A stretch of DNA of 64,000 nt, taken from the IMG/VR virus record IMGVR_UViG_3300031578_004185, positions 1-64,000 of that record; one strand, written 5' to 3'. The stretch comes from a virus. Shown piece after piece: positions 1-56,849 of this stretch (the first letter of the stretch is position 1; every line of letters starts with the position of its first letter). The translations under genes were made by a program, and so were the position numbers. Under the pieces are notes generated by a model. It did not search any database. It was given only the letters and a program-made list of their open reading frames with translations, and had not been told where the DNA came from.

Positions 1-20
1 GCACGAGGGGCTTGTGTAGG

Positions 21-27630: not shown

Positions 27631-27640
27631 CACCGATTTC

Positions 27641-27787: not shown

Positions 27788-27817
27788 TGTATACTCCTCC
27801 CTGACTTCCTGACATGC

Positions 27818-28066: not shown

Positions 28067-28100
28067 TTCGTCTTCACCTCCTTGCTAATCTATTGTTACT

Positions 28101-28130
28101 ATTAAAGCACACAGCACAGCACTTTGTCAA
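28101..28130 (-). promoter_or_regulatory. Promoter with repeated operator-like box
   Basis: Read leftward: TTGACA (28130-28125), 18 bases, TTTAAT (28106-28101). The spacer holds the 14-mer ACACAGCACAGCAC (+ strand 28109-28122), identical to 63985-63998 in the promoter at the right edge. It is an internal promoter inside the glycan cluster. Confidence 0.75.
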
Positions 28131-28148
28131 GTATTAAGGTTTCCCTTC

Positions 28149-29099: not shown

Positions 29100-29103
29100 C
29101 TGT

Positions 29104-29340
29104 CTACCTCTTTTTTATCAAGGCATTAACGTAGGATTTCAAATCGTCTCTAATTTCTTGTCTGGTTTTGTGTCCTTTGGTACCATGAGATTTGTATATT
29201 TCGTGTGATAGATGAGCCACATAGTAGCTGGTACCACGTAGTCCGTTCCTCTGCACCCATAGCCTAAGCCTCTTACGAACGCAGAATCTTTTGTTGGAGC
29301 TGTCAAATACTGCTATCTCTGCGAAACTCGTGTTACTCAT
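29104..29340 (-). CDS. 78-residue basic protein, unknown
   Basis: MSNTSFAEIAVFDSSNKRFC, then Arg/Lys-rich helices ending VNALIKKR. The start overlaps the aminotransferase stop. A small basic protein within the sugar genes, perhaps part of the same regulatory layer as the other tiny proteins. Confidence 0.55.
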   Translation of the reverse strand: MSNTSFAEIAVFDSSNKRFCVRKRLRLWVQRNGLRGTSYYVAHLSHEIYKSHGTKGHKTRQEIRDDLKSYVNALIKKR

Positions 29341-30512: not shown

Positions 30513-30523
30513 AATATTCCCCC

Positions 30524-31543: not shown

Positions 31544-32247
31544 AACATTTTCTCCTTCTTGTTGGTGATTATATCCAAGCTATCCTTCCCACAATTAAAT
31601 AATAAATCAATTACTGATAGATAGGGGACAAATTCCCCGTAGAGTTGCCCGTACACAGGATGCTGGTAGTCGTGATATGTTAGCTTGATACCATTCTGGG
31701 CAAATGCTCGTTCGCCCTCCCCAGTCAAGTAGTTCCTACCAGCGCTTCCCTCCAAGAGTTCGTCGGCCCCCAGTTCTAAGCAAATATTTACCATCCGGTG
31801 TACCTTGTCACCGTCAATACACAAGTCGCTGGAGAACTCCATCCTAGACTCTATCCCCAAGATGCTCCTCAGTTCTCTAATGAGGGTCAAATCAACATCA
31901 ATCAGGTACTTCCACTCTTTGGAATACATCTCACAGAACACGTCATAGTAATCCGCAAAGAACGGCGCTTTAGAGTAGTTTTGCTGGATACTCCTCAAGT
32001 GATTCTTCCTCCAGTTGGTACTGTTATCTATCAGCACATCTTTGATTAGAGACGTGTAATTTCCTTTGGTTGCCACTGGAATGGTCAACCACTGTACTCC
32101 TTGATGAGTCTTGATTCTGTTTCTGTTTCTCCAGCTGCGCCTATCATACTGGACATCATCGTACACAACAAAGATATCACTCCTAACCATTTGATCAAAG
32201 AATCCTAACCAAGGGAGGTATCCAGGTTGAAGTACTACAAGCCTCAT
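31540..32247 (-). CDS. WbqC-like family protein
   Basis: 235 residues. The opening LVVLQPGYLPWLGFFDQM and DDVQYDRRSWRNRNRI are the family signature. WbqC-like proteins accompany aminosugar genes in O-antigen loci and are thought to modify the amino sugar. The reaction is not established. Overlaps both neighbours. Confidence 0.85.
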   Translation of the reverse strand: MRLVVLQPGYLPWLGFFDQMVRSDIFVVYDDVQYDRRSWRNRNRIKTHQGVQWLTIPVATKGNYTSLIKDVLIDNSTNWRKNHLRSIQQNYSKAPFFADYYDVFCEMYSKEWKYLIDVDLTLIRELRSILGIESRMEFSSDLCIDGDKVHRMVNICLELGADELLEGSAGRNYLTGEGERAFAQNGIKLTYHDYQHPVYGQLYGEFVPYLSVIDLLFNCGKDSLDIITNKKEKML

Positions 32248-33230
32248 GTTTCCAGAACTCCTTTAGTTCGTCTTTGTTCGGCAACTTTCAGCACGTTCTG
32301 ATAATTATAGTTCCAAGATATATATTTCCAAGCGGAACACTTACTGCATACACCAATCTCGTCATACCTGCCTTCCAATAACAACTTCCGGTATAGGTTG
32401 AACTTCTCTCCTTTCCAAATACTGCTGAGAGATTCATCCATCACATTACCCATATTAGTTTCCCCAGCGACGTCATGACTACACAGCAACACTTTGCCCC
32501 TACTATCAATTTCAACCCTCTCGAACGGATATGGACAAGGCACTCTGTTAGTAATAAATGGTATAGTATCTCCAGATTCGGATGCGTATTTATCATCCCA
32601 AGTAAGATACTTCCTAACTTGGACATTGTCTACGATACCATTCCAGAAGGCCACAATGGAATCCAGTTTACCAGCTATTACTTTCTGGTTAATTATGCTA
32701 GCTATTATCTTGGTGTTGCCTCTTATGGCATCCCTCTTCTTTGCAAGGTATCGCACATTACGGACTAGTTTATCAAATTTCAATCCCACCCTGATCTTGG
32801 CGTAGGTTTCTCCATCGGCTGCGTCGGCACTGATGTCAATGGCGTCAATTCCCACATTCAGCATTCTGTTCACTTTGTCTGGTGTCAGGAGAGATCCATT
32901 AGTAATAAGCCCTACCCTCGCGTTGACGGACTTGGCGTACTTAATCAGCTCAATCACTTGTGGATGAAGCAACGGCTCGCCGCCGCCAGTAAGACGAAGC
33001 AAAGAGCCGAACTCACCACATTCTCTTGCTATCTTCTTAAATATCTCAGGTGGCATGAACGGGGCATCCCCGTAACTCCCCCTGATACTGGCGGACTGTG
33101 TATAGGGGCAGTGTGGGCATCTAGCATTACATACATAGGAAACGTTCACCGCTACCATTAAGGGGAACTCCTCGGCTCCCTCCTTGATTCCGTAGACTAT
33201 CGGCAGGTGACTCATTTCAGTGATTTCCAT
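32244..33230 (-). CDS. Radical SAM enzyme with SPASM-like C-terminus
   Basis: 328 residues from MEITEMSHLPIVY, GGGAGA upstream; the longer frame overlaps the previous gene. CNARCPHC binds the 4Fe-4S/SAM cluster. GGGEPLLHP is the SAM-contact motif. The C-terminal CSHDVAGE and CSKCSAW segments suggest an auxiliary cluster. It may modify a sugar or peptide in this pathway; the substrate is unknown. Confidence 0.85.
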   Translation of the reverse strand: MEITEMSHLPIVYGIKEGAEEFPLMVAVNVSYVCNARCPHCPYTQSASIRGSYGDAPFMPPEIFKKIARECGEFGSLLRLTGGGEPLLHPQVIELIKYAKSVNARVGLITNGSLLTPDKVNRMLNVGIDAIDISADAADGETYAKIRVGLKFDKLVRNVRYLAKKRDAIRGNTKIIASIINQKVIAGKLDSIVAFWNGIVDNVQVRKYLTWDDKYASESGDTIPFITNRVPCPYPFERVEIDSRGKVLLCSHDVAGETNMGNVMDESLSSIWKGEKFNLYRKLLLEGRYDEIGVCSKCSAWKYISWNYNYQNVLKVAEQRRTKGVLET

Positions 33231-33612
33231 TACGATCTCCCTGTTCTGTTTTTTGACTCTGCATTTCCGCCAGTATCTCTTTAACATCAGCGAGTTCCTT
33301 TTCCATTTTCTCAAATATGTCACGGAAAGGACCCCCCGAGTCCCATGACTGCACGTTGTTGGCTCTATAGAAGGAGGGCAACATAAATACCCACTCAAGT
33401 ATGGCCATAATAATTACAATCAAGACTAATACCAAACAAAACACCCAGAATGACAACGGTATCCCCCATGCCGTGAATATGGGGTTTATCGTTGTATAGA
33501 AACTCATTACTCCTACCAATGCAAGAGACAGCCAGCTCGCATAAGGACTTATATTGCCTATAACTATCTTAACTGCTCCCATGAATGTACCTGTCTGACG
33601 TTGCCTAAACAC
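33217..33612 (-). CDS. Membrane protein with C-terminal coiled coil
   Basis: 131 residues, GTG start with GGAGGTG. Two to three hydrophobic helices (WLSLALVGVMSFYTTI and FWVFCLVLVLIVIIMAILEW), then a charged helix EKMEKELADVKEILAEMQ. Possibly a scaffold for the glycan enzymes. Confidence 0.65.
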   Translation of the reverse strand: MFRQRQTGTFMGAVKIVIGNISPYASWLSLALVGVMSFYTTINPIFTAWGIPLSFWVFCLVLVLIVIIMAILEWVFMLPSFYRANNVQSWDSGGPFRDIFEKMEKELADVKEILAEMQSQKTEQGDRNGNH

Positions 33613-34721
33613 TATTCACCTCCCTTTAGATCTTCTAGCAGTTTGCAGTATTGGTCGGTTATTTCATTCCACGAGAACAGCTCCAATACCCGCTTCCTAC
33701 AGGCTTTCGCCATCCGTTGGGCAGCTTCTTTATGCTTCAGTGTCCAAGATATAGACCGTTCTAAGTCATCCACGTTCCCCGGCTCAATCAATAGCCCAGT
33801 AGTTCCCGCCTGTATTATTTCTTCTGTTCCTCCAACACTTGTGGCTATCACGGGAATACCAAACGACGCGGCCTCCATCACTGCTGTTGGTAACCCCTCC
33901 GAGTATGATGGGTTAACAAAAATACGAGCCGAACGGTAAACATCGTCCAGTTGCTTCCCCGACAACTCCCCAAGAAATTGGATACTGTTGCTACCGCCAG
34001 CAATCTCCCGCAACTGCCTCCGATACGGACCATCCCCGACAACCACAAGTGGAAGCCTCCCACCTAGTCGCTTGTGGGCTTCAATCAGATCCTGAACGCC
34101 CTTCGCCCGTACCAATCTGCCGACATAGAGTATTGAATCCGCCGTACCGGCAACGTTGCCGTTACCCACTATTCCATTAGAAATTCTGATTGTTCCCCGT
34201 GCCCCCAAATGCTTGGCGAAATTACAGGCAGCTCCGGATACTCCGACCACTCGCTCGGCTCTTCGCATGATCCAGCTCCCGATACTATGATCGTATGCTT
34301 TGCTGATAAGGTTGATCGCTAGATTTGCCACAACAGCATGACGGGAACCCCTTTCCACGTGAACTAGTGGCAACCCATGCAACGCCGAGAAGACAACTCC
34401 TACAAAGGACAACACAAAGAATCTTGTCTGCGTGATAACTACATCGTAGTCACGTTTCCTCGCTAAGACACTAAGCAACATTTTGGATGGCAATGGTACA
34501 GGGTACTGCCTATCCAGTAGAAGTAGACTCGGAACACGCCTGACCTCCACCCCGTCTATTGCCTCAATTGCTAGTGAGTCACCCAATTGACATGTGATCA
34601 CATCCACTTGATACCCTCGCTCAACCAGCCTCCGGGACAACTCCAGTACGTTCTTTTCGTAACCCCCGACGTGTGGTGGGAAGAAGGACGCCCACACCAA
34701 CAATCTTCTGGTACTACTCAC
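33612..34721 (-). CDS. GT4 family glycosyltransferase
   Basis: 369 residues. PHVGGYEKNVLELSRRL, ILYVGRLVRAKGVQDLIEA and SYSEGLPTAVMEAASFGIPV (E-x7-E donor loop). A standard retaining GT-B enzyme. Confidence 0.92.
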   Translation of the reverse strand: MSSTRRLLVWASFFPPHVGGYEKNVLELSRRLVERGYQVDVITCQLGDSLAIEAIDGVEVRRVPSLLLLDRQYPVPLPSKMLLSVLARKRDYDVVITQTRFFVLSFVGVVFSALHGLPLVHVERGSRHAVVANLAINLISKAYDHSIGSWIMRRAERVVGVSGAACNFAKHLGARGTIRISNGIVGNGNVAGTADSILYVGRLVRAKGVQDLIEAHKRLGGRLPLVVVGDGPYRRQLREIAGGSNSIQFLGELSGKQLDDVYRSARIFVNPSYSEGLPTAVMEAASFGIPVIATSVGGTEEIIQAGTTGLLIEPGNVDDLERSISWTLKHKEAAQRMAKACRKRVLELFSWNEITDQYCKLLEDLKGGE

Positions 34722-39567: not shown

Positions 39568-39741
39568 TTATCTTCTTATCCTCCTTCGTGCTTTATTCAA
39601 GTGCCTTTGCGTTTTGGTAGTCTTTATTTTAGGCAACTCCCTAGTTTTTATCACCTTACCACCCCGGACAGTTTGTCTCACCCGCTTCCCCGATGAGTAG
39701 GTTCTTACTCTATGGGTTACTCCACCAAACATAATAGACAT
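39568..39741 (-). CDS. 57-residue very basic protein
   Basis: MSIMFGGVTHRVRTYSSGKR... ending HLNKARRRIRR. Start overlaps the ATPase stop (TAATG). Probably DNA binding or packaged with the genome. Confidence 0.65.
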   Translation of the reverse strand: MSIMFGGVTHRVRTYSSGKRVRQTVRGGKVIKTRELPKIKTTKTQRHLNKARRRIRR

Positions 39742-40847
39742 TAGCTGTCATCCGCCCTAACTCGCGTAGAAAGTTGTGGGGCCGACTTCGAGTTGTAAAT
39801 TTTGAAATAACACGGGTAGTCTACAACCATCTTCGGTCTCTTCCCAGCTAACTTCAATCCTAGCCCTTTCAGGGTACCCAACACCTCGTCCTCGGTCATA
39901 TCCCCATCAGTAGCCAGCAGGTCTACCATCTCTTCGTAGTTGTCAACACCTGCCCTCAGTACCTCTAGGACAATCCGTTCTTCGTCCGTTTCCGGCTGGT
40001 ACCGCTTGCCATACTCGGTGATTCGTATCTTCCCATCTCCCAGATGGCTTCTCGGTCGCCCGGCGTCTACCGGTATCGGGAATGGCCGTCCTATCGGTAG
40101 TATCAAGTCCTTTCGCTTGTCGTATGCCACTCTCTGCACATAGTAAACGAATCCTGTGATATTGGCGGCGGACTTGGTACAGGTTACCATCCAGTTGATG
40201 TAGGGCTTCGCGGTAAACCTGTCCAAGTCATCCGTAGTCTGTATCGTTCCCAAGACGAAGCTATCCAGATGCCTGTACACCTTATGGATAGCCCCCATCG
40301 TCTTGTTCATGGGACTGTGAGGTTCTCGTTTGTAGCAGTACTTCCAGAACTCGGTGAGGTACAGCACGGAGTTTTTGAGCATAATCTCCCCCGCACCCTT
40401 TACCCACTCGTCGGCAGCCTTCTCCAAGACTGCGTTGACATCGGCTACTTTCGCTACTCCCTTCGTTGCCTGCCTCATCTTGGCGAAGTCGTCGTGGAGG
40501 ACATGTTCATTGAACAACCCGCCATAAGGTCCGTAGAGGTCTCTAGGCGGTTCATCACGCAGTATGCGCTTCCATGGGAAGTATCGCTTGATAGTGTGGC
40601 TCAGGTAGTTACCGAACAAGTCCTTACCTGTGCCAGGGACACCATACACGACACACAAGCCCCACAGACCAGTCACTTCCCTTGGCACAGTGAACAGGCG
40701 GTATAGCAAAGTAGCTCGCCGCCTGTCTAACATAGACAGATCGGAGCCGAACTTGATTCCCGACTCGTCGTCGTACCCTACAGATTCGTCGTAGAGTTCA
40801 AAGGTATTTCTATCCGGCTTATTCCTTCCCCCAAGCGTCGACACCAC
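39741..40847 (-). CDS. P-loop ATPase, Zot/HerA-FtsK-like, candidate packaging motor
   Basis: 368 residues, GTG start. Walker A is VVYGVPGTGKDLF. Walker B is NSVLYLTEFWKY with catalytic Glu. A conserved polar strand, FVLGTIQTTDDLDRF, comes after RHLDS, like the Q-containing strand of Zot and HerA-type motors. The C-terminal 100 residues look winged-helix-like (EERIVLEVLRAGVDNYEEM). Such ATPases package or extrude DNA in tailless membrane-containing and filamentous viruses. A morphogenesis role is inferred. Confidence 0.75.
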   Translation of the reverse strand: MVSTLGGRNKPDRNTFELYDESVGYDDESGIKFGSDLSMLDRRRATLLYRLFTVPREVTGLWGLCVVYGVPGTGKDLFGNYLSHTIKRYFPWKRILRDEPPRDLYGPYGGLFNEHVLHDDFAKMRQATKGVAKVADVNAVLEKAADEWVKGAGEIMLKNSVLYLTEFWKYCYKREPHSPMNKTMGAIHKVYRHLDSFVLGTIQTTDDLDRFTAKPYINWMVTCTKSAANITGFVYYVQRVAYDKRKDLILPIGRPFPIPVDAGRPRSHLGDGKIRITEYGKRYQPETDEERIVLEVLRAGVDNYEEMVDLLATDGDMTEDEVLGTLKGLGLKLAGKRPKMVVDYPCYFKIYNSKSAPQLSTRVRADDS

Positions 40848-41319
40848 CAGCTTCCTCTCCTTCTTCGCTCCTAGACTCCATCTCCGCTAGAGCGATATCC
40901 GTAATCTTGGTCAAGTTTATCCCGCCGATAGACTTCTGCCACAAGGCTGTCCTGTGGAGCAGTTCGTCCAGCCAGTTCGATGTTGTGGGTCTCGCCTTCT
41001 TGAAGACCCGCTTGTACTCATCCCTGTCCTGTCTGTAAACAGCAATACTTATTACGTCCTCCCAGATGACGTTTATAACATCAATGAGGGGAAACAGTCT
41101 CCCTTGGAACTTATCGATAACCGTAACCGAAGGAAGCATCTCACGGGACGGCGCGAACGCTAAGTCCAGAGCTTTATCTACAGCGGCTGACGAAACGCGC
41201 ACCTCCTCGGGTTTATCACCCGGTTCGGCGACCTCCTCCTTCTTTCGCCTCAACCTAGCTGGATCTATCTTCGGTTTAGTATCCTCTGATGTGGTGGCAG
41301 TAGCATCCTTCTTTGCCAT
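40819..41319 (-). CDS. 166-residue soluble protein, unknown
   Basis: MAKKDATATTSEDTKPKIDP start. Charged N-terminal tail, then a helical domain with IDKFQGRLFPLIDVINVIWE. Overlaps the ATPase gene by 29 bases, so a partner of the motor is likely. Confidence 0.6.
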   Translation of the reverse strand: MAKKDATATTSEDTKPKIDPARLRRKKEEVAEPGDKPEEVRVSSAAVDKALDLAFAPSREMLPSVTVIDKFQGRLFPLIDVINVIWEDVISIAVYRQDRDEYKRVFKKARPTTSNWLDELLHRTALWQKSIGGINLTKITDIALAEMESRSEEGEEAGGVDAWGKE

Positions 41320-41351: not shown

Positions 41352-42125
41352 CTATTGTACTCCTAGCGCATTCCGGATCTTGGCGACATCATCAGCTATC
41401 TTGGCTACATCCATACCCGATATGTTAACCAGCTGGTATATCACATAACCGAGCAAGAGCAGTATCAGTGCCAGCCCGACATAGACGACAGTCGGGTTGA
41501 GTTGTCTCCCCAGTTTCTTAATCGCGTCCTGTAGAGGGTTCATGATATCCTTAGCTACCGTAACGGCCAGTTCAGATACTTTCTCTTTGGCTATATTCCC
41601 CAGCACAGCAGGACTGGCTACCATCTCCCTAGTGGGCGCGGTCTTTAACTCGTCAGCCATATCCAGCAACTGACTCTTGACCTTGCTATCAGTCAGCGAC
41701 TCGGCGAGTTCCCGCAACGAGTCCTTAACGTCAGGACTAGCGACACCCTCACTGTACGAACCTCGGTTAAGCAACGGTTCCCAGTCATTGGCATCCACGA
41801 TGAGTGTCCGTATCTTGCGCTGGAGAAATGTAGGGATAAAGCCGTCCCCAGGGTACAGCATCTCAATCGTGCATATCTCGGCAAACGGCCACGTCTTGGT
41901 TGTGCCCGTCTTCGGATCGGTAATCGATACGCTAGTGCTTGTCTTTGGAACATAGTGTGTCGTCGTGCTTCCATCCGACTCGCGGACAAGTAGTTTCAGC
42001 TCGTTATCTACTCTCTTGTGCCACTGCCACTGGTAAAAAGCAATCATCAGGACGAATATCACAAACAGGTAAAGGACGATGTCTAGTCCGCTAAAATAAG
42101 TTGCCTCTACTTCTGGTCCAGTCAT
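41352..42125 (-). CDS. 257-residue membrane protein with two transmembrane helices
   Basis: N-terminal helix VLYLFVIFVLMIAFYQW, soluble beta and helical domain of about 170 residues, C-terminal helix YVGLALILLLLGYVIYQLV, then an amphipathic tail. Candidate minor virion-membrane or assembly protein. Confidence 0.65.
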   Translation of the reverse strand: MTGPEVEATYFSGLDIVLYLFVIFVLMIAFYQWQWHKRVDNELKLLVRESDGSTTTHYVPKTSTSVSITDPKTGTTKTWPFAEICTIEMLYPGDGFIPTFLQRKIRTLIVDANDWEPLLNRGSYSEGVASPDVKDSLRELAESLTDSKVKSQLLDMADELKTAPTREMVASPAVLGNIAKEKVSELAVTVAKDIMNPLQDAIKKLGRQLNPTVVYVGLALILLLLGYVIYQLVNISGMDVAKIADDVAKIRNALGVQ

Positions 42126-42424
42126 CCGATCCCCCTTTCGAGTCTCCTTTGTTCTCGTTTTCTTAGTCTATCTATGCTCCGGCTATGCCCGATTCTCCTG
42201 CTAGATTCTCTCAAGTTATGCGTATCGTCTAACCTCTTGCCTCGGAGAAACGCACTCGCAGTACCCAAGTCACGCGTCGGGTACCGTTTCAACTCAAAGT
42301 TTGCCCCAGCCAGAAGCTCCAGACCCTTGCGACGAGCTTCCTCCTCGTTTACACCACCGTAAACGAGATACGGGCGATTTTGGTCATAGGCTACGATCCA
42401 GTAATGGTATCTTCGCTCTCTCAT
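42122..42424 (-). CDS. 100-residue basic protein, unknown
   Basis: From MRERRYHYWIVAYDQNRPYL; GGAGG lies nine bases upstream, and the longer frame runs through the terminator side. HYWIVAYDQNRPYLVYGG, helix NEEEARRKGLELL, FELKRYPTRDL: a strand-helix-strand plan like the tiny-paralogue family but longer, with a basic tail. Confidence 0.6.
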   Translation of the reverse strand: MRERRYHYWIVAYDQNRPYLVYGGVNEEEARRKGLELLAGANFELKRYPTRDLGTASAFLRGKRLDDTHNLRESSRRIGHSRSIDRLRKREQRRLERGIG

Positions 42425-42513
42425 CTTTTCCTCCAAGCGAAGAACAGGTATGCGATAACGATAAAGGCAATGAGTACCACAGACCACACAGAGAGAGAAC
42501 TGAAATCAATCAT
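42421..42513 (-). CDS. 30-residue single-pass membrane peptide
   Basis: MIDFSSLSVWSVVLIAFIVI followed by AYLFFAWRKR. GAGGT upstream; stop overlaps the next ATG. Size and layout recall the minor coat peptides of filamentous phages, without sequence similarity. First gene after the coat-gene terminator. Confidence 0.6.
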   Translation of the reverse strand: MIDFSSLSVWSVVLIAFIVIAYLFFAWRKR

Positions 42514-42530: not shown

Positions 42531-42575
42531 AAAAAAGGGACAGAGAGTACCCTTCTATGGAGTACTCTCTGTCCC
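42531..42575 (-). terminator. Strong intrinsic terminator after the coat-like gene
   Basis: 14-bp perfect stem GGGACAGAGAGTAC (42537-42550) / GTACTCTCTGTCCC (42562-42575). Read leftward, it is followed by TTTTTT. Confidence 0.92.
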
Positions 42576-42597
42576 GTTCGCCCGGGAGGTGCCATTC

Positions 42598-42783
42598 TTA
42601 GCCCTTCCTCCCGATTGACATGACCACGCCTATCAGGATCGCGGCCGCCACGATCACCCGGAGCAGGTTCTGGAGGATGACGGAACCAGTATCGGTTCCG
42701 GTTATGATGTTGGTGATGAGGCTGTCAATCACGACGAAAGCTACAACGCCGATTACGACGGTAACAAGTCCTCGTACTGACAT
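42598..42783 (-). CDS. 61-residue two-helix membrane protein, candidate major coat protein
   Basis: Two hydrophobic helices, RGLVTVVIGVVAFVVIDSLI (about 4-24) and RVIVAAAILIGVVMSIG (about 42-58), are separated by a short Thr/Gly/Asp/Asn loop (TNIITGTDTGSV); the end is basic. This is the architecture of fusellovirus/spindle-virus coat proteins and other small membrane coats. It alone has its own near-consensus promoter and a 14-bp terminator, so it is probably made in great excess. A coat role is inferred from these two facts. Confidence 0.7.
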   Translation of the reverse strand: MSVRGLVTVVIGVVAFVVIDSLITNIITGTDTGSVILQNLLRVIVAAAILIGVVMSIGRKG

Positions 42784-42828
42784 TAACTATCACCTTCCTT
42801 CTCGGGCTGGACGGCCCTGTTAAAAGTT

Positions 42829-42857
42829 ACTTTAGCACTTGTGTTCTGTTTTGTCAA
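42829..42857 (-). promoter_or_regulatory. Promoter of the coat-like gene
   Basis: Read leftward: TTGACA (42857-42852), 17 bases, TAAAGT (42834-42829). A leader with GAAGGTG precedes the ATG. Confidence 0.85.
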
Positions 42858-42892: not shown

Positions 42893-44767
42893 TTACACTC
42901 TCCTTCCACCTGCCAACGACATAACGAACCCGACAATCATTCCGGCGGCAACCACTATCCAGATGTAGGATAGCGCGGCCAGATCCGTTCCCAAAAACCC
43001 GAGCGGTAGAGTGGAGATAGTTAGTATCAGGTCAAGCAACTTGGCAGGGAACGTGATAAATCCCATAACACCCGCCGTGTCTGCGATGCGGGCTATCTTG
43101 TAGTCTATACTGGCATTCAGTATCGCTGCCTCTCTGGTACGGACGGTAGCGTTCTCAGCATGGGTCGCTGCGTCCGTATCATGCTCCCCTCTGGTTAGCG
43201 GGTTAACAGTGAGCGGTCCGACTGTGGTACTCTCGAAGGTAGTATCCGTCTTGGAGGGGTAGCCGATATGCTCGTCTCCAATAACTACAAAACCGCTATC
43301 CGGGAAGCCATCCGTGCTGGCTACGTTGATAGTTGCAGTCTCCGTGTCCGTAACAGCGGATGTAAGGTAGGTCGCTACCATCGCATTACTGCCCGCAGCG
43401 TAGTTCCCGGCGATGGACACGATAACAAACATCCACAACATAAACATAAAGCCTTTGTGGAGGGTCTCCGAGCGGAAGAACAAGACATAACCAACGAAGG
43501 CACCACTAGCTATAAATAACAAAGAGGCGACTAACGGAGACAGCATACCGAGCAATGCTCCTCCGACTATCATTATGGAGAATACAATCATCACCGACTT
43601 GCCACTACCTACTCCCTCGCCGCGACCAGCACTCTCGCCGAACTCGCCACTGGGGGTTTCTACTTTATACACAGCAGCGCACACCAGCAAAGTTATCAGC
43701 ATCCAGACAATCCCGGAGAGGAACCACCGAGACATACCGAATGTAGCAGCCAGCGTGGTCAGGTCGATACCTGTGCCCGTCACGGAGGTATCCATTAAGG
43801 TGATTGTGGTAACTTCCTCTACATCCACCGTGAACGTCCCTGCCCCGGTAACAGTCAAGGTATTTATACCTGGGGTCAGGTCAATAGGGACACCTGCGAT
43901 TGTTCCCGTGCCGTCGTCTATATCGCCGAATGTCCACCCAGCGAGGTCTATGATGATAGTGCCAGTAGTTACCCCCGTGTCTATCGTATTCACCCCCTCG
44001 GTTAGTGTTACGGGCGAACCGACTATGGTCGCCCCGCCACTGGTCGCTGCCCCCCCGAAAGCGGTGTCGTAGTCCAACGGTGTGTACTCGGGGTCGGTCT
44101 CCACGCTAGAGAACGCATCAGGAGCAATGTCCCTGAGATGCGGAATAGTGTTAGCGAAGTAACTCTCACCGAGAGTAGTCAGGGTACTCCCACCTCCGTA
44201 TATCTCCTGTATCAAATCAAGCGACCAGAGTACTTCCAGCACGTCGGCGTAGTAAAGAACGCGTAGAGCAATAAGACTGGATGGGTCGCCCACAGTACTC
44301 CACTGGTCAATACCCGCTATCGTCTTGGGCGGGTCGGGACCCGGCACCCATCCCAGAGCAGGGTTACCGGATAGCCATACTTCGTGGAGGGCAATGTTGG
44401 TGCTGTCCAGTCCGTACGCAGTCGCTTCGGCGGCGGTGAACCGTATCCATATCAGTCCCCTGCCATAGCCGCTATCCTGATAAACGTATGGTGCTACCGA
44501 CTTTAGCTGGGTAGTCCCGTCCGTGTCCACGAATATCGCCATATAGGCCTCGGCTGCGGTCTCGCTGGGGAGGGCTGCGTAGTCGAGGTAGTAGTCAACG
44601 AGGACACCGACGTCCCCGTCCTCGTAGCAGTTCTCGTAAACGTAGACGGCGTTGATAGACGGCGCACTATCAGGATCGGCGATGGCGTAAACAAGAGCAG
44701 GAGCGACCAGTATAGCCACAAGAGCAATCAGAGGGACGATTATAATTCGCTTCACAAGCCTTATCAT
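42893..44767 (-). CDS. Large exported membrane protein, candidate virion surface protein
   Basis: 624 residues from MIRLVKRIIIVPLIALVAIL; AAGGAG upstream, and the longer frame overlaps the previous gene. Signal peptide, then an ectodomain of about 330 residues rich in Thr/Gly/Val with imperfect repeats (TLTEGVNTIDTG and DLTPGINTLTV). Several membrane helices follow, interrupted by a second outside domain, with helices at the C-terminus. No family recognised. Confidence 0.7.
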   Translation of the reverse strand: MIRLVKRIIIVPLIALVAILVAPALVYAIADPDSAPSINAVYVYENCYEDGDVGVLVDYYLDYAALPSETAAEAYMAIFVDTDGTTQLKSVAPYVYQDSGYGRGLIWIRFTAAEATAYGLDSTNIALHEVWLSGNPALGWVPGPDPPKTIAGIDQWSTVGDPSSLIALRVLYYADVLEVLWSLDLIQEIYGGGSTLTTLGESYFANTIPHLRDIAPDAFSSVETDPEYTPLDYDTAFGGAATSGGATIVGSPVTLTEGVNTIDTGVTTGTIIIDLAGWTFGDIDDGTGTIAGVPIDLTPGINTLTVTGAGTFTVDVEEVTTITLMDTSVTGTGIDLTTLAATFGMSRWFLSGIVWMLITLLVCAAVYKVETPSGEFGESAGRGEGVGSGKSVMIVFSIMIVGGALLGMLSPLVASLLFIASGAFVGYVLFFRSETLHKGFMFMLWMFVIVSIAGNYAAGSNAMVATYLTSAVTDTETATINVASTDGFPDSGFVVIGDEHIGYPSKTDTTFESTTVGPLTVNPLTRGEHDTDAATHAENATVRTREAAILNASIDYKIARIADTAGVMGFITFPAKLLDLILTISTLPLGFLGTDLAALSYIWIVVAAGMIVGFVMSLAGGRRV

Positions 44768-47604
44768 AAGGTCGGACTCCTTTCGGACACGACACCCGCA
44801 GCGAATAGTATTATGGACAAAACTACCAGATAAAGAGGGAATATGTTGTGGTCGAAAGCGACCAATCCTCCCAGTGCGACCCCCGCGATAATTACCACGA
44901 TACCTCGATGACCTCGTAACCACCGAGCTGCTCCGACTGTAACGAACAGCAGGAACGCCAAGCCGAGCCAGCGCCATACCCATATCTCGGTCAGGGTAGT
45001 GTTATCGGATACCATCGTGATAAACGGACGGACAGGGTTAGCCAGCGTCGCCGCTTTGGTTACCGTTCCGTCTCCATGTATATCTCCCCCTGCAGGCGTA
45101 ACGAGTATGTCTCTGGTCTCCCTATCCTCGGCTGTTCCCGGTGCAGGTTGGTCTTCAGCAGTAAAGCTACCGAGGGCGACGGCTACTCCTGTGGGGTTAA
45201 CCCCCCAAGTTATTCTGCCGTCGTTAGCACCAGTCTCGTCTACTACAGTCCCGAAGTCGACAGTGAAGGTGTCGCCAGCGTCTACGTTAGCCGTAAGAGC
45301 AGCAAACTGTAGCTCGTCAGTAGCGGCGAGGAAGTCGGTAATCACCGCCGTTTCGCCTTCAGGGGCAAGACCATCGGTGGTCTCGGTGATTATCAATCTC
45401 GCCCCGTTCCAGTAGTCGTCAGCCTGTGTGAGAGCAGCGTCTATAATCTTGACATCGGTACTACCCGCGTCGGCGGTACTGTCCTCGCCAGTATTGTCAA
45501 CTATCGTGTCGGGTTGGTATTTTAGTACCTCTGCCCCGCCGACATCAATGGTCATATAGTCCATATAAGGCATAACATTGTTTTGCATCAATAACCAGTC
45601 ATTAGCAGTGTTAGGAACACTCGCTCCTAATAGTCTAGCATCATCTTCCATAGTCCCATCAATAGAAATACTTAGTGTATGTGGTCTAGTACCAACAATC
45701 CAAGATGTGTTTGCGCCTGCTGTGCCTGCGTTTGCCCCAGAGCCGTAAGAGGTTATATTAACTCCTGTCCCCTCATCAATATACCAGAAGTCTGTCTCAT
45801 CCCCCGGTGGTGTGCCATTATACAAAGCTGTCTCTTCAGCAGCAGATAAATCATCTGTCCCAACACAGAAATCACATATACTCCCGATGAACGGGCTCGC
45901 ACTGCTTGTATTTGTATAACAGCCTATATAAAAGTTATTTGTAGTGCCGATTGCCTCGGCGTTTGCGTTAGTATCGGCAACCCCGTTATCTACTCTCAAT
46001 CTTGCTCCATTACTGGCAGCACCACCACCAACTGCCTGCCCCATACTGGCAATTACATGATACCACTGCCCCCCATTCCAACTAGCTTGGGTACTGTAAT
46101 AAGCAAACTTTGTAGCACCTGCTACTACGTTATTAAAATAGAGCTTCCCGTTGAAGCTCCTGAGGTAAAGATTAAAAGTAGTTGTCCCGCTATACTTGTT
46201 AAACAAATACATATTATCGTCTGCACCAGCCTCATAGTCCTCATCCAGTTTGAACCAGAAGCTAATCCACAGTTTAGCTGAGGCGTCATAAATATCACCG
46301 CAGTCTATTCCTTTATTAGTAGCATCGGGGAAGTATAGTAGTGTCCCTTCAGCTAGATTGGAAGTTGTCCCTGCTTTAGTGTTGATTGTATATTCACCAC
46401 TGTCAATACTTGTGGCAGTTACATCTAGGTCAGCTGGACAGATAGCTATAGTGTTAGACATCCACTGTTGTCCTGCCGAAAGAGTAAAAACTCCCGGGTC
46501 ATCACTTACTGCATTTAACTCTCGCCTAGCACTGCCTATAGCTACACCCTCAGCATTAGCAGCAACATTGTTAAGCCCATTCCCATAGTTGGCAGGATAA
46601 GCATTGACAGTTACGTTGTCATCATTTAGTTCCATAGCAAACCACAGCGTATTTCTAGCACCCCACGAAGGTACTAAGTTAGGGGGGTCAGGATTAGCAC
46701 TATTCCCATTGGTAGCGACCCCGTTTTCTGGCACCTCTGAATAGCCAGTAATGCGGTATATAGTGTAAGCAGTCATTTCAGCAGCATCGGTAGTAACAGT
46801 GAAAGGGTCATCTTCGCTAGCACTAGCTACCTTATACCAAGCCCCACCTCTAGCATCTGGTGCACCAAAAGTGTCCTTCTGAAACAGATTAGTCCATCCT
46901 CCGGGAAAGGCTATAGCAGGAGTCCCATCAGTCCCAAAGAACACTAACAGTAGGTCGCCAGCTACAACCCCAGCAGGTAGGTTAACAGTATGGTTCAGTC
47001 CATTAACGGCGTTATTGCCACCATTAGTTGTTGCAACGGTAGGAAAAGCTCCTCTATGTATCAGTGCAGAGGTAATCTCATCTTCAGCACTAACATAAGT
47101 CCTGAAAGCATCTTCTTTATAAACCAAGTTCTTATCAGCACCAGCGTCAGTATTGATATACCCGCTCTGCTCAATCTCAAAGGTATCACCAAGCTCAATA
47201 GTAGCGTCATCAGGGATAGTTATGTACCCGTCATGCCCGGGGATAATATCCATACTGGAAGCAGGAGTGCTTCCCGTAGTGTAGTAGAGATTGACCTGCG
47301 AATCGGCAGGGACGGCGGTAGCAGTAAGTGTCCTGTCTTGGGCAACCATCCAAGGCTTCTCGGAACCCCCCAAGGTCTCGACACGGGTATCCAGCGCGTC
47401 CGCTCGCATAAAGCCGTTATCCGCCATCCATTGATTATTGGCGTCGGTCTGCGTCGCCAGCATATCGTAGGCGTTGCCGCTATCCTCGGTGATAGCGAAC
47501 GAGGCACTGTACGCAGCAGCTAGCACAGGAGCCGCAACAACTACCAGAGCGAGGAACACCAAGGCTAACGATAAAACACGACTAAGTAGCTTGGTCTTAA
47601 TCAC
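44764..47604 (-). CDS. Large LamG-like exported protein with C-terminal membrane helices
   Basis: 946 residues, signal peptide ending VLAAAYSAS. A region around residues 440-600 (LWISFWFKLDED... and GGQWYHVIASMGQ... and NNFYIGCYT) has the strand pattern of a concanavalin/LamG sandwich. Beta-rich repeats follow. The last 90 residues hold three hydrophobic helices. Glycan binding is the usual LamG role, so host recognition is plausible. Overlaps its neighbours by four bases. Confidence 0.72.
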   Translation of the reverse strand: MIKTKLLSRVLSLALVFLALVVVAAPVLAAAYSASFAITEDSGNAYDMLATQTDANNQWMADNGFMRADALDTRVETLGGSEKPWMVAQDRTLTATAVPADSQVNLYYTTGSTPASSMDIIPGHDGYITIPDDATIELGDTFEIEQSGYINTDAGADKNLVYKEDAFRTYVSAEDEITSALIHRGAFPTVATTNGGNNAVNGLNHTVNLPAGVVAGDLLLVFFGTDGTPAIAFPGGWTNLFQKDTFGAPDARGGAWYKVASASEDDPFTVTTDAAEMTAYTIYRITGYSEVPENGVATNGNSANPDPPNLVPSWGARNTLWFAMELNDDNVTVNAYPANYGNGLNNVAANAEGVAIGSARRELNAVSDDPGVFTLSAGQQWMSNTIAICPADLDVTATSIDSGEYTINTKAGTTSNLAEGTLLYFPDATNKGIDCGDIYDASAKLWISFWFKLDEDYEAGADDNMYLFNKYSGTTTFNLYLRSFNGKLYFNNVVAGATKFAYYSTQASWNGGQWYHVIASMGQAVGGGAASNGARLRVDNGVADTNANAEAIGTTNNFYIGCYTNTSSASPFIGSICDFCVGTDDLSAAEETALYNGTPPGDETDFWYIDEGTGVNITSYGSGANAGTAGANTSWIVGTRPHTLSISIDGTMEDDARLLGASVPNTANDWLLMQNNVMPYMDYMTIDVGGAEVLKYQPDTIVDNTGEDSTADAGSTDVKIIDAALTQADDYWNGARLIITETTDGLAPEGETAVITDFLAATDELQFAALTANVDAGDTFTVDFGTVVDETGANDGRITWGVNPTGVAVALGSFTAEDQPAPGTAEDRETRDILVTPAGGDIHGDGTVTKAATLANPVRPFITMVSDNTTLTEIWVWRWLGLAFLLFVTVGAARWLRGHRGIVVIIAGVALGGLVAFDHNIFPLYLVVLSIILFAAGVVSERSPTL

Positions 47605-48122: not shown

Positions 48123-48254
48123 TTACTTGACCCCCTTACCGACTCTACTCCGCAGTTTTTTTACAAGGTACCGCATAAGTGGGACAACTGTGAACACTAC
48201 TATCCCAATTAGAGCGTAAACAAACACTCCGAACGACGATGGTATTTCACTCAT
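48123..48254 (-). CDS. 43-residue single-pass membrane protein
   Basis: MSEIPSSFGVFVYALIGIVV... then MRYLVKKLRSRVGKGVK. One helix with a basic inner tail; start overlaps the giant gene's stop (ATGA). Candidate minor virion-membrane protein. Confidence 0.65.
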   Translation of the reverse strand: MSEIPSSFGVFVYALIGIVVFTVVPLMRYLVKKLRSRVGKGVK

Positions 48255-51200
48255 AGTCTCACACTCCTTACCACGGTTGGCTGGTTGTCCCTTTTGCCGA
48301 TCCGCTTCGGTTTCTTCTTGCTCATCTTAGCTCGGTTGACCCCCTTGCTACTCACGCCCTCTGTACTATGGGCGTCAGACCCTCTGAGCCACCCGGGGTC
48401 CTCGTCAAAGTACAAGTCCCTTGGTTCGGGTTCAACCTGCCTTATTCTAGCAGACTCCACCCGCTCTTCAGCTACTCTCTTTCTCTCCTCCACTACCTCT
48501 GGACGATTAACGCCCCGCATCTCGATTTCCCCTTTTACCCTGTCAGGCTTGGTAGTAGCGGATATAGCCGTCCTTGATACGCTGTGAGCGGGCTTGACAG
48601 TACCAATCTCCGAGCGAGATATGCCTTGACTCGGCACGGACATGCCCTTCGTAGGACTGTCAACTCCTCTACCGACATTGGTCTCCAGACCCTTACCACC
48701 GACCTCTATCCGTTGTCCATAGTCGCTGATAAAGAAGTCCACTATGCCGAAATCGGCATTAACCTTCTCAGGGACTTTAGCCCTTGGTTTGCCTATCATC
48801 TGCACCGTCCCCTTGACCGTCTTTAGGTGCGTGTTCTTTGCCCCCATTGGGACTACGCCTCTAGGGAGCGTCTGCATCTTCGGCTGGTCCCACGGAGGAG
48901 GTGCCCATCGCCAGAACAGACCATGCTTCACTGTAATGCTCCCCGGCGGTAACTCTGCTCGCTTACCGGATATCCGTGGTCTGACCAAGGCAACTGGTGG
49001 GGGCGGCGTAACAGGTATTATTCTGGGCGTCGGTCTAGGGGTCACCACAGACATAATAGGTGTTTTCACAGGCGTAACCGGCGTTTTTCTCGGTGTCTCT
49101 CTCGGTGTCTCTCTCGGTGTCTCTCTCGGTGTCTCTCTCGGTGTCTCCCTAGACGTTGTTCTGGGAGTCGTCCTAGGTGTTATCTCGGGAACCAATCTTG
49201 GGGTGCCCCTAGCACTAATCTCCGGCACAGGCTCCCCTGCTACACGCGTTGGTGCGAACCCGGATGTGACTGGAACTCTCTCAGCGAAGATTGTTTGTTC
49301 CCTAGCCTCGGAGGGTGGGATTTCCCTAATTCCAGCCATAGCACGAGGAACTATTGGGATAACGCGCAACATTCTCCGTTCACGGAAAGGAACGAGGAAA
49401 TCAGTAGGCCCGGCTCTTGGAACCTCAGCAAGTGTTGCTTTAACTCGCCTAGCATTGTCGTTCGAGGCGTACAACAAATCCCGCTCAGGGGTCTTAAAAG
49501 TAGCCTTCAAGTTCTTAACATCCCTAGCCTTCTTTGCTCCCCGTAATATCTCATACTCAGGAGTTCCTTTGGGGTACTGCTTTATCCCCGCAGTCGGTAG
49601 GTGTTTATCCACCACAACCAACTTGGAAGTATCAAACCCCCGCTTGTAAAGTTCTATGTACAGAGACGGGCTGACGGCTGCTGAATCCCCGGAGCGAAGA
49701 ACACGGACAGCACCAATCTCCGGCTCGTATACCCACTCTCTCGCCTTCCAGTCGTACCACTTGTTCATTGGTATCTTCAATTTCAGGCTAGCAGGTTCGC
49801 CGTCAAACATATATGTCCCAAAGGCGGAGTGTTCAGTGGTCTTGCCCATGTGGACTTCGGCAGGACGCATATTTTTAACTCTAATCCCCAGTTCGGATAT
49901 TATTTGCTCCTCAGCGAACTCCTTTAGTGTCCCTCTACCAAAGGGTCGACCAACTCTCGGTTGCCCTCTCACATCTATTTGCCCACCGATGGTATTCCAG
50001 ACTCCAGCAAGATCAGTCGCAGCCGTATCGGTTCCTACGATATATGCCCCCTTGATAGTGGGGTGTTTAAGCATCACAGCCGTTCTCGGAACGACCCAGT
50101 TATCACCGAATTCCCGTACCGGGTGATAGTATGGGTCTCTCGTTCGTACCAACCTACCATTTCGGTCAACAAAAGGAACGTCAGCCAACCCAGAAGGGTC
50201 TCCGGCTTTCTCTAACTTGGAGGCTAATTCAGGGGTAGACAATCTTCGACTTGGGTCTCTACCTTCCAAGAACGCGCGGACAGCAACGTCGACAGGACTG
50301 GATTTCATCTCCTGCAACGTTATTCCCCGGCTGTACCACATCTTCGGCGAGGTGACGATATCACTAGCCCTAGCTCTTGGTCTAATAGCTTTGCCAGGGT
50401 CAAACCAGTTCTCTATCGCCACTTTAGGGCGACTAACGAATTTGGTATGATACAACTGTCGCATAGTTGGTAATACTCTGCCCTCGGCGATTGCCGCGTT
50501 CGTTGCCGTAATGACAATCGGCATACTCTGACCGGCTCTGATACGTTGCCCGGTTACTATATCCATACCCGCGATCGGGCTGTAAGTTGTTATGGTCGCC
50601 ACTTCGGGCATCGTCTCCCCACCTGTGGCAACCTTATCTAACCTACGGACAGGAGCGAACACCTTGGAAGTAAACCCTGCAGGGGTAACCATCTCCAATT
50701 CCCAAGTGGGTCTAATTTCACCGCTCGGTTCTTGTGACCAGTGAAACTTGTAAACAGGGTAAACACCTTGGGGCAGAGCATCGGGATGCCCGGGAGGTAA
50801 TAGTGCTCTCCGTTCTACTTCACGCCTGAGCAGGTCGTTCGCCGCGGATACGGGGTCGCCAAAGTTGCGCTTCTTGGCTGCCATCCATATCCTCTCGTTC
50901 CGCATCTGCTTAGAAACCGCTTCGTGGACAACCATAGGCAAATCCCGTATGTCTTTAGAGCTGTAGCGGAGCATTTTGCCACCAGGAGAATACCAATCCT
51001 TTATCTTAGGAATCGTATCCTTGGGTATCACGTAGTCCTTGAACTTGGGACTGGACGGGTTCTCTAAAAGTTCACGCAATACCGTCTCCGCAGTCTTCTT
51101 GGTAACCAACGCACGATTGGCGACGCGAAATGAGTTGACTACTTCCTGCGGTATCTTGCCCAAGTACCACCCAGCGACATCGCCGGAGAAGTTGGGTGAC

Positions 51201-53680
51201 CACCACTCCATTGAACCCGTGGGAGTGACATCCTTGCCGAGTTTGCCTATCTGCCGGAGATAGGTATTGATGTCGGGTTTAACGCTAAATAAAATTCGCT
51301 GGTCAAGAGACACCTGTGCTGGATTACTCCTAGCCCTGATAGATGTCTCCCTCGGTGTTCCCCCGACGACACCCCCTCTTACCGTCTTGATCTGACCTGT
51401 CAACTTGCTATACGACACAAACTGCTCAGCATAGGCAAGAGCGTCTTCTGGTCGCTTGAACATTTTGAGTGCTTGCTCTACGGCACGAGGGAGCTTGCCT
51501 CCGTATATCTTCTCCACCTGTTGTACCAAATCCACAGCATATTCAGGGGTCATAAACCCCTTCAACTGCGTCCTAGGGATACTAATCTCCAACGACAAGT
51601 TAGGTGGCTCAAAACTCCCCGGACGTACAGCTTGGCGGACCTCCTTGAACACAAACTTGCCACCACCAATAGCGACACCGGCAAACAAAAGGGCTTCGAC
51701 ACCAACAGCCAATACTTTTTCCGTGGGACTAGCTTTAGGGCTAAGAACGGTTTTTGCGGCGTCAGGTAGAAGCAGGACGCCTAACCCGGCAGGTACACCC
51801 CTCTTTACTATCTCGCCTGTTAAGCGACCAACTGTTGTAATGGCACCCCGGGCAACGGTTGGTATCACTCTCATCCCCGTCATTCTCGCCAATGTTGCGG
51901 AACCGATTGAACTAACAGGGAGACCCAGCATCATAACATCCAGAGCAGCCACCAACCCACCGATAGCCCACTCTTTTGCTGTTACCCTCGTTCCATAGTT
52001 GTAATACTCCAACCCAGCCTTCAGGTCGTCAGATGTCTCATACCCTATATCCTCGGCAATAGCCTGAACCTTCGCCGGATCCGCTTTGTCTAGTTTCTTG
52101 ACATCGAACGAGCCATCGGGTTTCACATAATCGCGCAGGGCGGATAATTCAGTCTTATAGGTCTTTGTTAGCTGTGCTTTGGCTTCTGGTAAAGTCAACC
52201 GCTTCCCAATAGGGGTTGTAATCGGCTGTATCGGGGCAAAGAGCAACTGCAGGGCGAGGTTTTTGCTGGATATGTGTTCAATGTCTTTCGCAAAGGCGGA
52301 GAAGACACTACCCTTCGTCCAATCCTTGTCGAACAGGACGGCAACCGCTCGCTTTTGGTCGTCATTGAGTTGCCGATAGGCTTCAGTGTATGACCCCTTG
52401 ACAGGCTTGATATCGAGGTCGTCTAAGGCTCTACCTAACGAGCTTAGTTCCCCAGAGGACAACCCAAGACGCCTCGCAAATCCTGTTCCGGTAGGTACAA
52501 CACCCTTGTCTAAGTGGGCGGCGATACTACCAGTAGTTTTATTCCACTGAGTAACTGCGGACAGAATATCGTCCCCAAAACCAGCATCACGTAGTGTCTT
52601 CATTCCATCGGGGTTCTTCCGAACAAACTCAGCCATAGCAGGGAGCGTGTACTCGCGGAGTGAGGGACCGAACGCCCTCATATATGCCCCTTCGGGAAGT
52701 TTCTCCACGAAGCCAGCACTAGATAGTCGTTGCAGGGCAACCTGTTGTCTTGCATACGCTTTGGTGGTAGCAATCTCACCCACCTTATACTTACCAGAGT
52801 ACACCTCCCCTAATTCTTCCGGGGATAACCCCATCTCGTCCCTCTGCTTCGCAAACGCCTCCCACACTAGGACAAACTTGCCCTTTTTGATGTTCCCAGG
52901 GTCGTCGGGGTCAGGCATAAACGCCTTATACTTCCCACTCTGGATCTCGGCTAATTGCTTCTCGGCTTCGGCAAGGTTCTTGGCATATCCAGCAGAAACC
53001 TGCTGGGATATCCAGTCCTGTTTAGCCTTCTCTTGCCCTCTGGCTTGCGCAACAGTATAATATACAAAGCTCCCGTCCTTCTCGCCGGCGTAGACACTAC
53101 CTCTAGGGACAAAACCCAGCTGGACAGCCCTATTAAACTTAGCCTTGCCTGTGAGTTTGCTATAATCTGCTAACTGCTTGTTGATAGTCTCGGATACCCT
53201 AGACGGGAGAGCGACATCGGAGTGAGTTTTAATGAAGTCCAGTTGCACAGCCAGTGGAGCACCGGCTTTTCGCATAGCACTTAGCTGGATATCAGGTCTG
53301 GCTCCACGAACCTTGGCAGGCAGGTAAGCCTCAACCGTAGCAGGTCTCTCCTTGGTAGGAGGAACACCAACGAACTCTACAGGCTCTGCAGGTGGAACCA
53401 CAGCAGGTTCGGGAGCACCGATGAATTCTACAGACGCTTCCGCTTTAGCCCTTGCTTTCTCGGCTCTGGCTTTCTTCTCAGCCTCCTGAGCCTTGTAGGC
53501 TTCTGAACCCTTCCATGGTGTACCCTTCTTCCACGTCCCTGCTTTGCGAGCAGCTTTTTTAGCGTCTACTCTAGCTCTCTGCTCCGCTTTCTGCTTCGCA
53601 TAGCTGGGTTGCGGAGTAGTAGGTGGTGCCGAGGTAGTCGCTACCGAGGTAGTCGCTACCCCTCTTGTATCATCAGCCAT
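48251..53680 (-). CDS. Giant 1,809-residue virion-module protein with Nudix-like segment
   Basis: Charged Lys/Ala-rich start. Hydrophobic segments near residues 575-660 (GGLVAALDVMMLGLPVSS, VLAVGVEALLFAGVAIGG). A segment near 1180-1290 has NTIGGQID and TLKEFAEEQIISELGI, resembling a degenerate Nudix box. A Thr/Pro/Arg repeat lies near 1515-1540 (ETPRETPRETPR). The basic C-terminus ends QPTVVRSVRL. The largest gene here, first large gene after the virion promoter; it overlaps the zinc ribbon upstream by eight bases. Could be injected with DNA or form the virion end. No full-length family recognised. Confidence 0.65.
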   Translation of the reverse strand: MADDTRGVATTSVATTSAPPTTPQPSYAKQKAEQRARVDAKKAARKAGTWKKGTPWKGSEAYKAQEAEKKARAEKARAKAEASVEFIGAPEPAVVPPAEPVEFVGVPPTKERPATVEAYLPAKVRGARPDIQLSAMRKAGAPLAVQLDFIKTHSDVALPSRVSETINKQLADYSKLTGKAKFNRAVQLGFVPRGSVYAGEKDGSFVYYTVAQARGQEKAKQDWISQQVSAGYAKNLAEAEKQLAEIQSGKYKAFMPDPDDPGNIKKGKFVLVWEAFAKQRDEMGLSPEELGEVYSGKYKVGEIATTKAYARQQVALQRLSSAGFVEKLPEGAYMRAFGPSLREYTLPAMAEFVRKNPDGMKTLRDAGFGDDILSAVTQWNKTTGSIAAHLDKGVVPTGTGFARRLGLSSGELSSLGRALDDLDIKPVKGSYTEAYRQLNDDQKRAVAVLFDKDWTKGSVFSAFAKDIEHISSKNLALQLLFAPIQPITTPIGKRLTLPEAKAQLTKTYKTELSALRDYVKPDGSFDVKKLDKADPAKVQAIAEDIGYETSDDLKAGLEYYNYGTRVTAKEWAIGGLVAALDVMMLGLPVSSIGSATLARMTGMRVIPTVARGAITTVGRLTGEIVKRGVPAGLGVLLLPDAAKTVLSPKASPTEKVLAVGVEALLFAGVAIGGGKFVFKEVRQAVRPGSFEPPNLSLEISIPRTQLKGFMTPEYAVDLVQQVEKIYGGKLPRAVEQALKMFKRPEDALAYAEQFVSYSKLTGQIKTVRGGVVGGTPRETSIRARSNPAQVSLDQRILFSVKPDINTYLRQIGKLGKDVTPTGSMEWWSPNFSGDVAGWYLGKIPQEVVNSFRVANRALVTKKTAETVLRELLENPSSPKFKDYVIPKDTIPKIKDWYSPGGKMLRYSSKDIRDLPMVVHEAVSKQMRNERIWMAAKKRNFGDPVSAANDLLRREVERRALLPPGHPDALPQGVYPVYKFHWSQEPSGEIRPTWELEMVTPAGFTSKVFAPVRRLDKVATGGETMPEVATITTYSPIAGMDIVTGQRIRAGQSMPIVITATNAAIAEGRVLPTMRQLYHTKFVSRPKVAIENWFDPGKAIRPRARASDIVTSPKMWYSRGITLQEMKSSPVDVAVRAFLEGRDPSRRLSTPELASKLEKAGDPSGLADVPFVDRNGRLVRTRDPYYHPVREFGDNWVVPRTAVMLKHPTIKGAYIVGTDTAATDLAGVWNTIGGQIDVRGQPRVGRPFGRGTLKEFAEEQIISELGIRVKNMRPAEVHMGKTTEHSAFGTYMFDGEPASLKLKIPMNKWYDWKAREWVYEPEIGAVRVLRSGDSAAVSPSLYIELYKRGFDTSKLVVVDKHLPTAGIKQYPKGTPEYEILRGAKKARDVKNLKATFKTPERDLLYASNDNARRVKATLAEVPRAGPTDFLVPFRERRMLRVIPIVPRAMAGIREIPPSEAREQTIFAERVPVTSGFAPTRVAGEPVPEISARGTPRLVPEITPRTTPRTTSRETPRETPRETPRETPRETPRKTPVTPVKTPIMSVVTPRPTPRIIPVTPPPPVALVRPRISGKRAELPPGSITVKHGLFWRWAPPPWDQPKMQTLPRGVVPMGAKNTHLKTVKGTVQMIGKPRAKVPEKVNADFGIVDFFISDYGQRIEVGGKGLETNVGRGVDSPTKGMSVPSQGISRSEIGTVKPAHSVSRTAISATTKPDRVKGEIEMRGVNRPEVVEERKRVAEERVESARIRQVEPEPRDLYFDEDPGWLRGSDAHSTEGVSSKGVNRAKMSKKKPKRIGKRDNQPTVVRSVRL
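49090..49150. repeat. 12-bp tandem repeat inside the giant gene
   Basis: CTCGGTGTCTCT stands about five times in tandem, encoding ETPR repeats on the minus strand. It keeps the reading frame, so copy number can vary without frameshift. Confidence 0.85.
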
Positions 53681-56510: not shown

Positions 56511-56522
56511 ATCCATACCTCC

Positions 56523-56846: not shown

Positions 56847-56849
56847 AAT

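Follow-up and report, generated by a model that had tools for sequence, protein, structure and literature searches.

The window, a stretch of 64,000 nucleotides covering bases 1-64000 of a 68,001-bp IMG/VR virus record, encodes a 61-amino acid protein that is predicted to form a membrane-inserted helical hairpin and is almost invariant among diverged viruses. We consider this protein to be probably the major coat, working in the manner of the spindle-virus coats, of a bacterial dsDNA virus whose particle is tailless or membrane-based; a spindle-shaped virion is plausible. The coat role is proposed because of the near-invariance of the protein, its solo transcription unit, the intron insertions in its gene, the hairpin model, the conserved block of structural genes in which it lies and the lack of a recognised canonical capsid or terminase. 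A sequence-only reading of the window had pointed to such a coat; its observation is confirmed and considerably strengthened, while its interpretation is partly supported.

The product of the gene (MSVRGLVTVVIGVVAFVVIDSLITNIITGTDTGSVILQNLLRVIVAAAILIGVVMSIGRKG) has a mean hydropathy of +1.5. In the AlphaFold2 model calculated from the single sequence (pLDDT 78.7, pTM 0.53) helices run from residues 3 to 28 and 33 to 58, and the model conforms to the small, highly hydrophobic helical hairpin of the spindle coats. The latter are highly hydrophobic alpha-helical proteins (PMC9894754) forming a curved alpha-hairpin (PMC10866085). Foldseek comparison of our model with PDB and BFVD gave no significant match, and two-helix hairpins rarely yield one.

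A search of 2.9 million viral contigs in IMG/VR revealed four further contigs carrying the protein, G001 to G004. G001 is the same virus as the window record (99.98% identity over 27.9 kb). The other three are diverged, with a median identity of 51% and a maximum of 73% over 38 pairs of shared proteins, counting only pairs whose alignment covered 60% or more of the longer protein. By comparison, the 61-residue protein is identical at 60-61 of 61 positions between the window record and these three relatives. The copies in G002 and G004 are identical to the window protein; that in G003 has the change T24S, a GTG start and one additional C-terminal alanine, the last being common to G003 and G004. 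Comparison of the gene with its diverged relatives gives dS values of 1.7-3.2 and dN/dS of 0.014-0.035. Synonymous sites are thus nearly saturated, and the conservation therefore sits in the protein and not in the DNA. The low dN/dS shows that the ORF is a real gene under extreme constraint at the protein level. The isolated two-helix membrane protein of the sequence-only reading is therefore borne out by the ORF, the hairpin model and the near-identity in three diverged relatives.

Searching the viral contigs with the coat candidate, the neighbouring ATPase and the neighbouring 257-residue protein yielded no member beyond these relatives, the latter two queries returning the same four contigs only. 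No relative of the 61-residue protein was found in 84,980 GTDB genomes, and there is therefore neither a provirus nor a direct link to a host. The coat candidate, the ATPase and a PolB-like protein each lack a relative in 50,697 phage records, so that the present virus and its kin look like a family of bacterial DNA viruses not yet described.

Coat proteins usually diverge along with the rest of the genome. Near-invariance is therefore also compatible with binding to a host target that does not change, and is unusual for a coat among viruses so diverged. The protein might then be a non-virion membrane protein such as a holin, a pore, a superinfection-exclusion protein or a host-takeover peptide, held constant by a host partner that does not itself vary. 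A two-helix hairpin with basic ends would also fit the topology of a class II holin, and a solo expression unit would suit such a protein. Against this, holins usually evolve fast, no lysis genes are recognised beside the gene, and no holin family match was found in Pfam, PHROGs or NCBIfam. Membership of a holin or secretion family would have told against a coat, but searches of these three collections and of PDB sequences gave no such match. We regard a non-virion role as unlikely.

The gene lies alone between expression signals (Table 1), as the sequence-only reading had proposed. In all four lineages we find TTGACA, a spacer of 17 or 18 nucleotides and TAnnnT, followed by GGGCYGTCY..CCC, a ribosome-binding site, the near-identical protein and a hairpin. 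The -10 elements are TAAAGT, TAGAAT, TACAAT and TATATT, and a hairpin is predicted at the leader element in three of the four lineages. A hairpin lies 3' of the gene in each of them, with a clear T-run only in the window record. The strong terminator stem noted previously is confirmed, but it contains 16 pairs rather than 14. Counted within the window alone, promoter-like sites (5, against 3.1 +/- 1.6 in shuffled sequence) and terminator-like sites (3, against 2.6 +/- 1.5) are not above expectation; it is the retention of the unit in the relatives that makes the promoter and terminator credible. Such a unit is what a bulk product needs, and the protein is presumably abundant.

Table 1. The putative coat gene, its expression signals and the surrounding genes (window positions).
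Feature	Position	Strand	Evidence
61-aa two-helix membrane protein, candidate major coat	42598..42783	-	ORF; hairpin model; identity and dN/dS
Sigma-70 promoter TTGACA-17-TAAAGT	42829..42857	-	kept in three diverged relatives; class enriched genome-wide
Leader element GGGCCGTCCAGCCC, conserved as GGGCYGTCY..CCC	42804..42817	-	comparison of lineages
Ribosome-binding site AGGAAGGT region	42791..42799	-	sequence; position conserved
Intrinsic terminator, 16-pair stem and T6	42537..42575	-	hairpins at equivalent place in relatives
Small basic protein, conserved; 121-aa ORF with probable start near 42430	42122..42487	-	49-53% identity in G003 and G004
Conserved 257-aa protein, hydrophobic segments near both ends	41352..42125	-	49-51% identity in three relatives
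Conserved 166-aa protein	40819..41319	-	43-47% identity in three relatives
P-loop ATPase, 368 aa, Walker A GVPGTGKD	39741..40847	-	51-54% identity in three relatives
696-aa ORF, membrane protein, true start probably about 44770	42893..44983	-	45-49% identity in G003 and G004
946-aa protein, laminin-G-like domain, hydrophobic C-terminus, candidate attachment protein	44764..47604	-	Pfam Laminin_G_3, 1e-8
1809-aa large protein	48251..53680	-	variable in relatives

The promoter belongs to a class that is abundant in these genomes. Perfect TTGACA-16..18-TAnnnT sites number 14, 9, 15 and 6 in the four genomes, compared with 1.7, 0.6, 1.4 and 0.9 expected from shuffles, an enrichment of 6- to 14-fold, and they lie mostly on the coding strand. 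The relatives also encode bacterial-type domains, namely a prepilin N_methyl segment, LuxR GerE, PadR, Sigma70_r4 and Wzy_C (O-antigen ligase). The genome-wide enrichment of sigma-70 promoters together with these domains indicates that the host is most likely bacterial, in contrast to the archaeal hosts common to all known spindle-coat viruses. We rejected an attempt to name the host from a 339-residue epimerase, as its best genome matches, in Deltaproteobacteria MAGs, are too distant at 58-60% identity; the two virus copies of the epimerase are 73% identical to each other.

In each of the three diverged relatives the gene is split by an intron, at one of two sites lying 9 nt apart. The introns of G002 and G003 (987 and 979 nt) lie within codon 10 (GTG GT|R ATC) and contain ORFs with zinc ribbons and an HNH_3 domain (9e-11 and 1e-8). 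That of G004 is 297 nt long, is inserted 9 nt further on, and contains a degraded endonuclease ORF of which the start alone is kept. Matches to Rfam Intron_gpI score 42.3 bits (E 1e-9) in G004, 27.2 in G003 and 25.6 in G002, all below the curated cut-off of 50 bits. With the boundaries we infer, the exon ending in U and the intron in G, the same ORF is restored in all three relatives. This is consistent with the insertions being group I introns, which are predicted to splice. Phage genes in which homing introns become established tend to be conserved and essential. Among Cluster J mycobacteriophages, spliced introns have been reported in capsid genes (PMC3706429).

Around the gene, genes for membrane and adhesin-like proteins and for an ATPase form a block of conserved order, in agreement with the structural-looking neighbours seen in the sequence-only reading. 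The 696-residue membrane protein belongs to this block; its matches to baseplate and virion PHROGs, at residues 535-622, are confined to one stretch of 90 residues. A P-loop ATPase lies a few genes downstream of the coat candidate in all four lineages. All known spindle viruses are reported to have an ATPase (PMC10866085), and the small hydrophobic alpha-hairpin coats are encoded together with it (PMC10866085, PMC9894754), as is found at this locus. The ATPase had been called Zot/HerA-like, a label that finds no supporting profile match. The protein has no Pfam, NCBIfam or PDB family, matching only a PHROG of unknown function (E 0.011), and its AlphaFold2 model was discarded as unusable (pLDDT 37).

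Terminase, portal, HK97-type capsid and tail families do not appear among the matches listed (in two of the lists, 25 of 58 and 25 of 29 families) for the scanned ORFs of the five related, incomplete records: 54 from the window record, with the sugar cassette and structural block left out, 55 from G004, and 69 from G001, G002 and G003. Because these records are fragmentary, a capsid gene may be in the sequence that they lack, or may be too diverged for recognition by profiles.

The same matches bear on the idea that this is a conjugative or other non-viral element, with the 61-residue protein a pilin-like subunit of a secretion system. The hairpins of VirB2 and TraA are similar in shape, hairpin pilins of 60-75 residues exist, and the 257-residue neighbour has a very weak match to TraW (E 0.11). 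Yet VirB4, TraG, the coupling protein (VirD4), relaxase and other conjugation families are absent among the matches listed for the scanned ORFs, the 61-residue ORF has no leader peptide, and the ATPase is unmatched in 72,556 plasmids. Moreover the gene lies in a virus record, and that record has replication genes of phage type (Sak4, PolA and methylases). A pilin is thus a very improbable identity for the protein.

We compared the coat candidate with profiles built from fusellovirus VP1/VP3, His1 VP21 and the BLv25 MCP, so that the comparison covers fuselloviruses and two halophilic archaeal viruses, and not the coats of NSV1, PAV1, NYMAG-47 and the Methanosarcina virus. Against SSV VP1+VP3, HHalign gives a probability of 28.6 and a score of 22.8, a score reached by none of 200 and then by 3 of 1500 decoys made by shuffling segments helix by helix. 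The controls behave similarly, with probabilities of 26.4 for His1 VP21 and 37.6 for the BLv25 MCP, and no decoy out of 200 reaching either. Using HMMER with VP1+VP3, 10 of 1000 decoys do as well as the 61-residue protein (10 for His1, 69 for BLv25), and with VP1 alone 43 of 1000 are at or above it (1 for His1, 28 for BLv25). Most of the similarity falls in helix 1 and the turn, where VTVVIGVVAFVVIDSLITNIITGTDT aligns with FIFILIGIVLLPVIVSQVNNLTSGTSP. It is weak, and while worth reporting it falls short of proving homology.

Homology of this bacterial coat to those of archaeal spindle viruses, in a large genome and with an almost frozen coat sequence, is plausible, though less likely than not. 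The coat could otherwise have arisen independently, as the main building block of a bacterial virion that is filamentous or contains a membrane and that has neither spindle descent nor spindle shape. Two-helix hairpins are simple and converge easily, the promoters are bacterial, and the profile made from His1 and BLv25 gives no signal with the protein (429 of 1000 and 82 of 200 decoys are as good). Furthermore, one of 55 natural two-helix ORFs equals its score against VP1+VP3, albeit at a lower probability of 19. Set against independent origin, the VP1+VP3 score beats 1497 of the 1500 helix-wise shuffles and equals those of accepted cross-family spindle coats. On this balance an independent origin seems somewhat doubtful. 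The likeness to spindle coats, which the sequence-only reading drew from layout and not from homology, is borne out for the hairpin; a weak, calibrated similarity to VP1/VP3 exists as well, though none to the His1/BLv25 profile.

The VP1/VP3 proteins of the fuselloviruses (SSV1, SSV2, SSV19, ASV1 and SMF1) are likewise small, very hydrophobic hairpins encoded by a strongly conserved coat gene; among SSVs the VP1 C-terminus is 78-97% identical to that of SSV1 (PMC5748691). However, fuselloviruses have archaeal hosts and promoters, they encode VP1 and VP3 at one locus, and their VP1 matures from a precursor by cleavage at a conserved glutamate. The present gene is by contrast a single copy in a solo bacterial transcription unit, with introns in the relatives, and its ORF has neither an N-terminal extension nor a glutamate before which cleavage could occur. 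We do not file the protein as a fusellovirus VP1, because the cleaved precursor, the glutamate and the archaeal host are all lacking. The halspivirus His1 VP21 and the BLv25 MCP are two-helix coats too, with an equal level of similarity to the fusellovirus profile, but these viruses have haloarchaeal hosts and small genomes, and their coats show no direct profile similarity to the 61-residue protein. In genome layout the present record resembles archaeal viruses with large genomes, up to 72.6 kb (PMC9894754). In both, structural and enzymatic genes form blocks, the enzymatic one with DNA polymerase and nucleotide-metabolism genes, although those viruses have archaeal hosts.

Closer in host are the Inoviridae, bacterial viruses that also combine a tiny membrane coat, pVIII, with a P-loop ATPase of Zot type. 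Their pVIII has one helix and carries a signal peptide, and their genome is small ssDNA; the present protein has two helices and lacks a signal peptide, in a large genome that encodes DNA polymerases of its own.

If the protein is the major coat, the following assembly can be envisaged. The strong solo promoter with its leader and terminator would give large amounts of protein, and the hydrophobic hairpin would insert in the membrane. Both basic ends (R4 at one, R59 and K60 at the other) would then be inside, facing the DNA, with the TGTDTGS turn outside. Judged from the helix limits in the model, D20 and R42 lie at a similar height on the two helices and could pair. Hairpins would pack laterally into a lattice, and assembly would take place at the cell membrane around the DNA, aided by the adjacent ATPase and membrane proteins. 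The large LamG-type protein is a candidate for the attachment spike.

The start of the 61-residue protein, SVRGL, resembles a motif, approximately S-h-x-G-h-R(R), that terminates a number of dissimilar proteins, mostly after a basic, Ser-rich tail. These occur in the window (56157-57233 (-) and 17159-18451 (+)) and in G002, G003 and G004 (L016-L025). The window endings are TSMRGIRR, TSVRGIR, TSLRGIRR and TQVRGVRR, and those in the relatives are ALGGMRR, FGGIRR, SVRGLR, FGGLR, GLGGIR and DFGGLK. The C-terminal motif may be a common sorting or packaging tag.

A perfect inverted repeat of 117 bp, with repeats of GTGTAATCAC inside, relates window 1-117 to positions 11-127 of L014 (G001), and lies at the opposite ends of a combined genome of about 79.5 kb. 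The genome may be linear with terminal inverted repeats. No less likely is a circular genome in which the repeat sits at a divergent origin, because gene order in G002 is continuous across the corresponding place. Near position 19000 of the window, gene orientations converge and the GC skew changes sign, a pattern that would follow from replication or transcription starting at the terminal or joined ends.

Two DNA polymerases are encoded in the window: a family A enzyme with an apparent N-terminal uracil-glycosylase-like part (58720-61422 (-); PHROG 17, 3e-101), and a divergent family-B-like one with the motif YDVNSMYPS (3750-5339 (+); PHROG 11768, 6e-7). A LAGLIDADG domain forms an intein-like insertion in a DNA methylase of G001 (L014:7079-10003), and the DinG-like helicase of G003 has an insertion of similar appearance. 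G002 encodes a ribonucleotide reductase (L016:1939-4413) and G004 a type IV prepilin-like protein (L024:11379-11774). A large sugar or cell-surface cassette occupies window 19055-34721 (-), including by appearance glycosyltransferases, radical SAM and WbqC-like proteins, an epimerase and an aminotransferase. Four of its genes are common to the window record and G004, at 60-73% identity. Carriage of this cassette by the virus record and the sharing of these genes suggest that the virus alters the surface glycans of its host.

Spindle-shaped viruses are held to infect archaea exclusively (PMC12042106) and are treated as archaea-specific (PMC10866085, PMC10848311, PMC12451623), and we found no report of a bacterial one in the literature searched. 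A bacterial lineage with the spindle-coat architecture, perhaps by descent, would alter both the range of hosts of this virion type and the age inferred for it. If the bacterial coat is truly homologous, the spindle virion type would not be restricted to Archaea, and this would be the first such bacterial family. The near-constancy of the coat candidate in genomes whose other parts are about half identical calls for a physical explanation.
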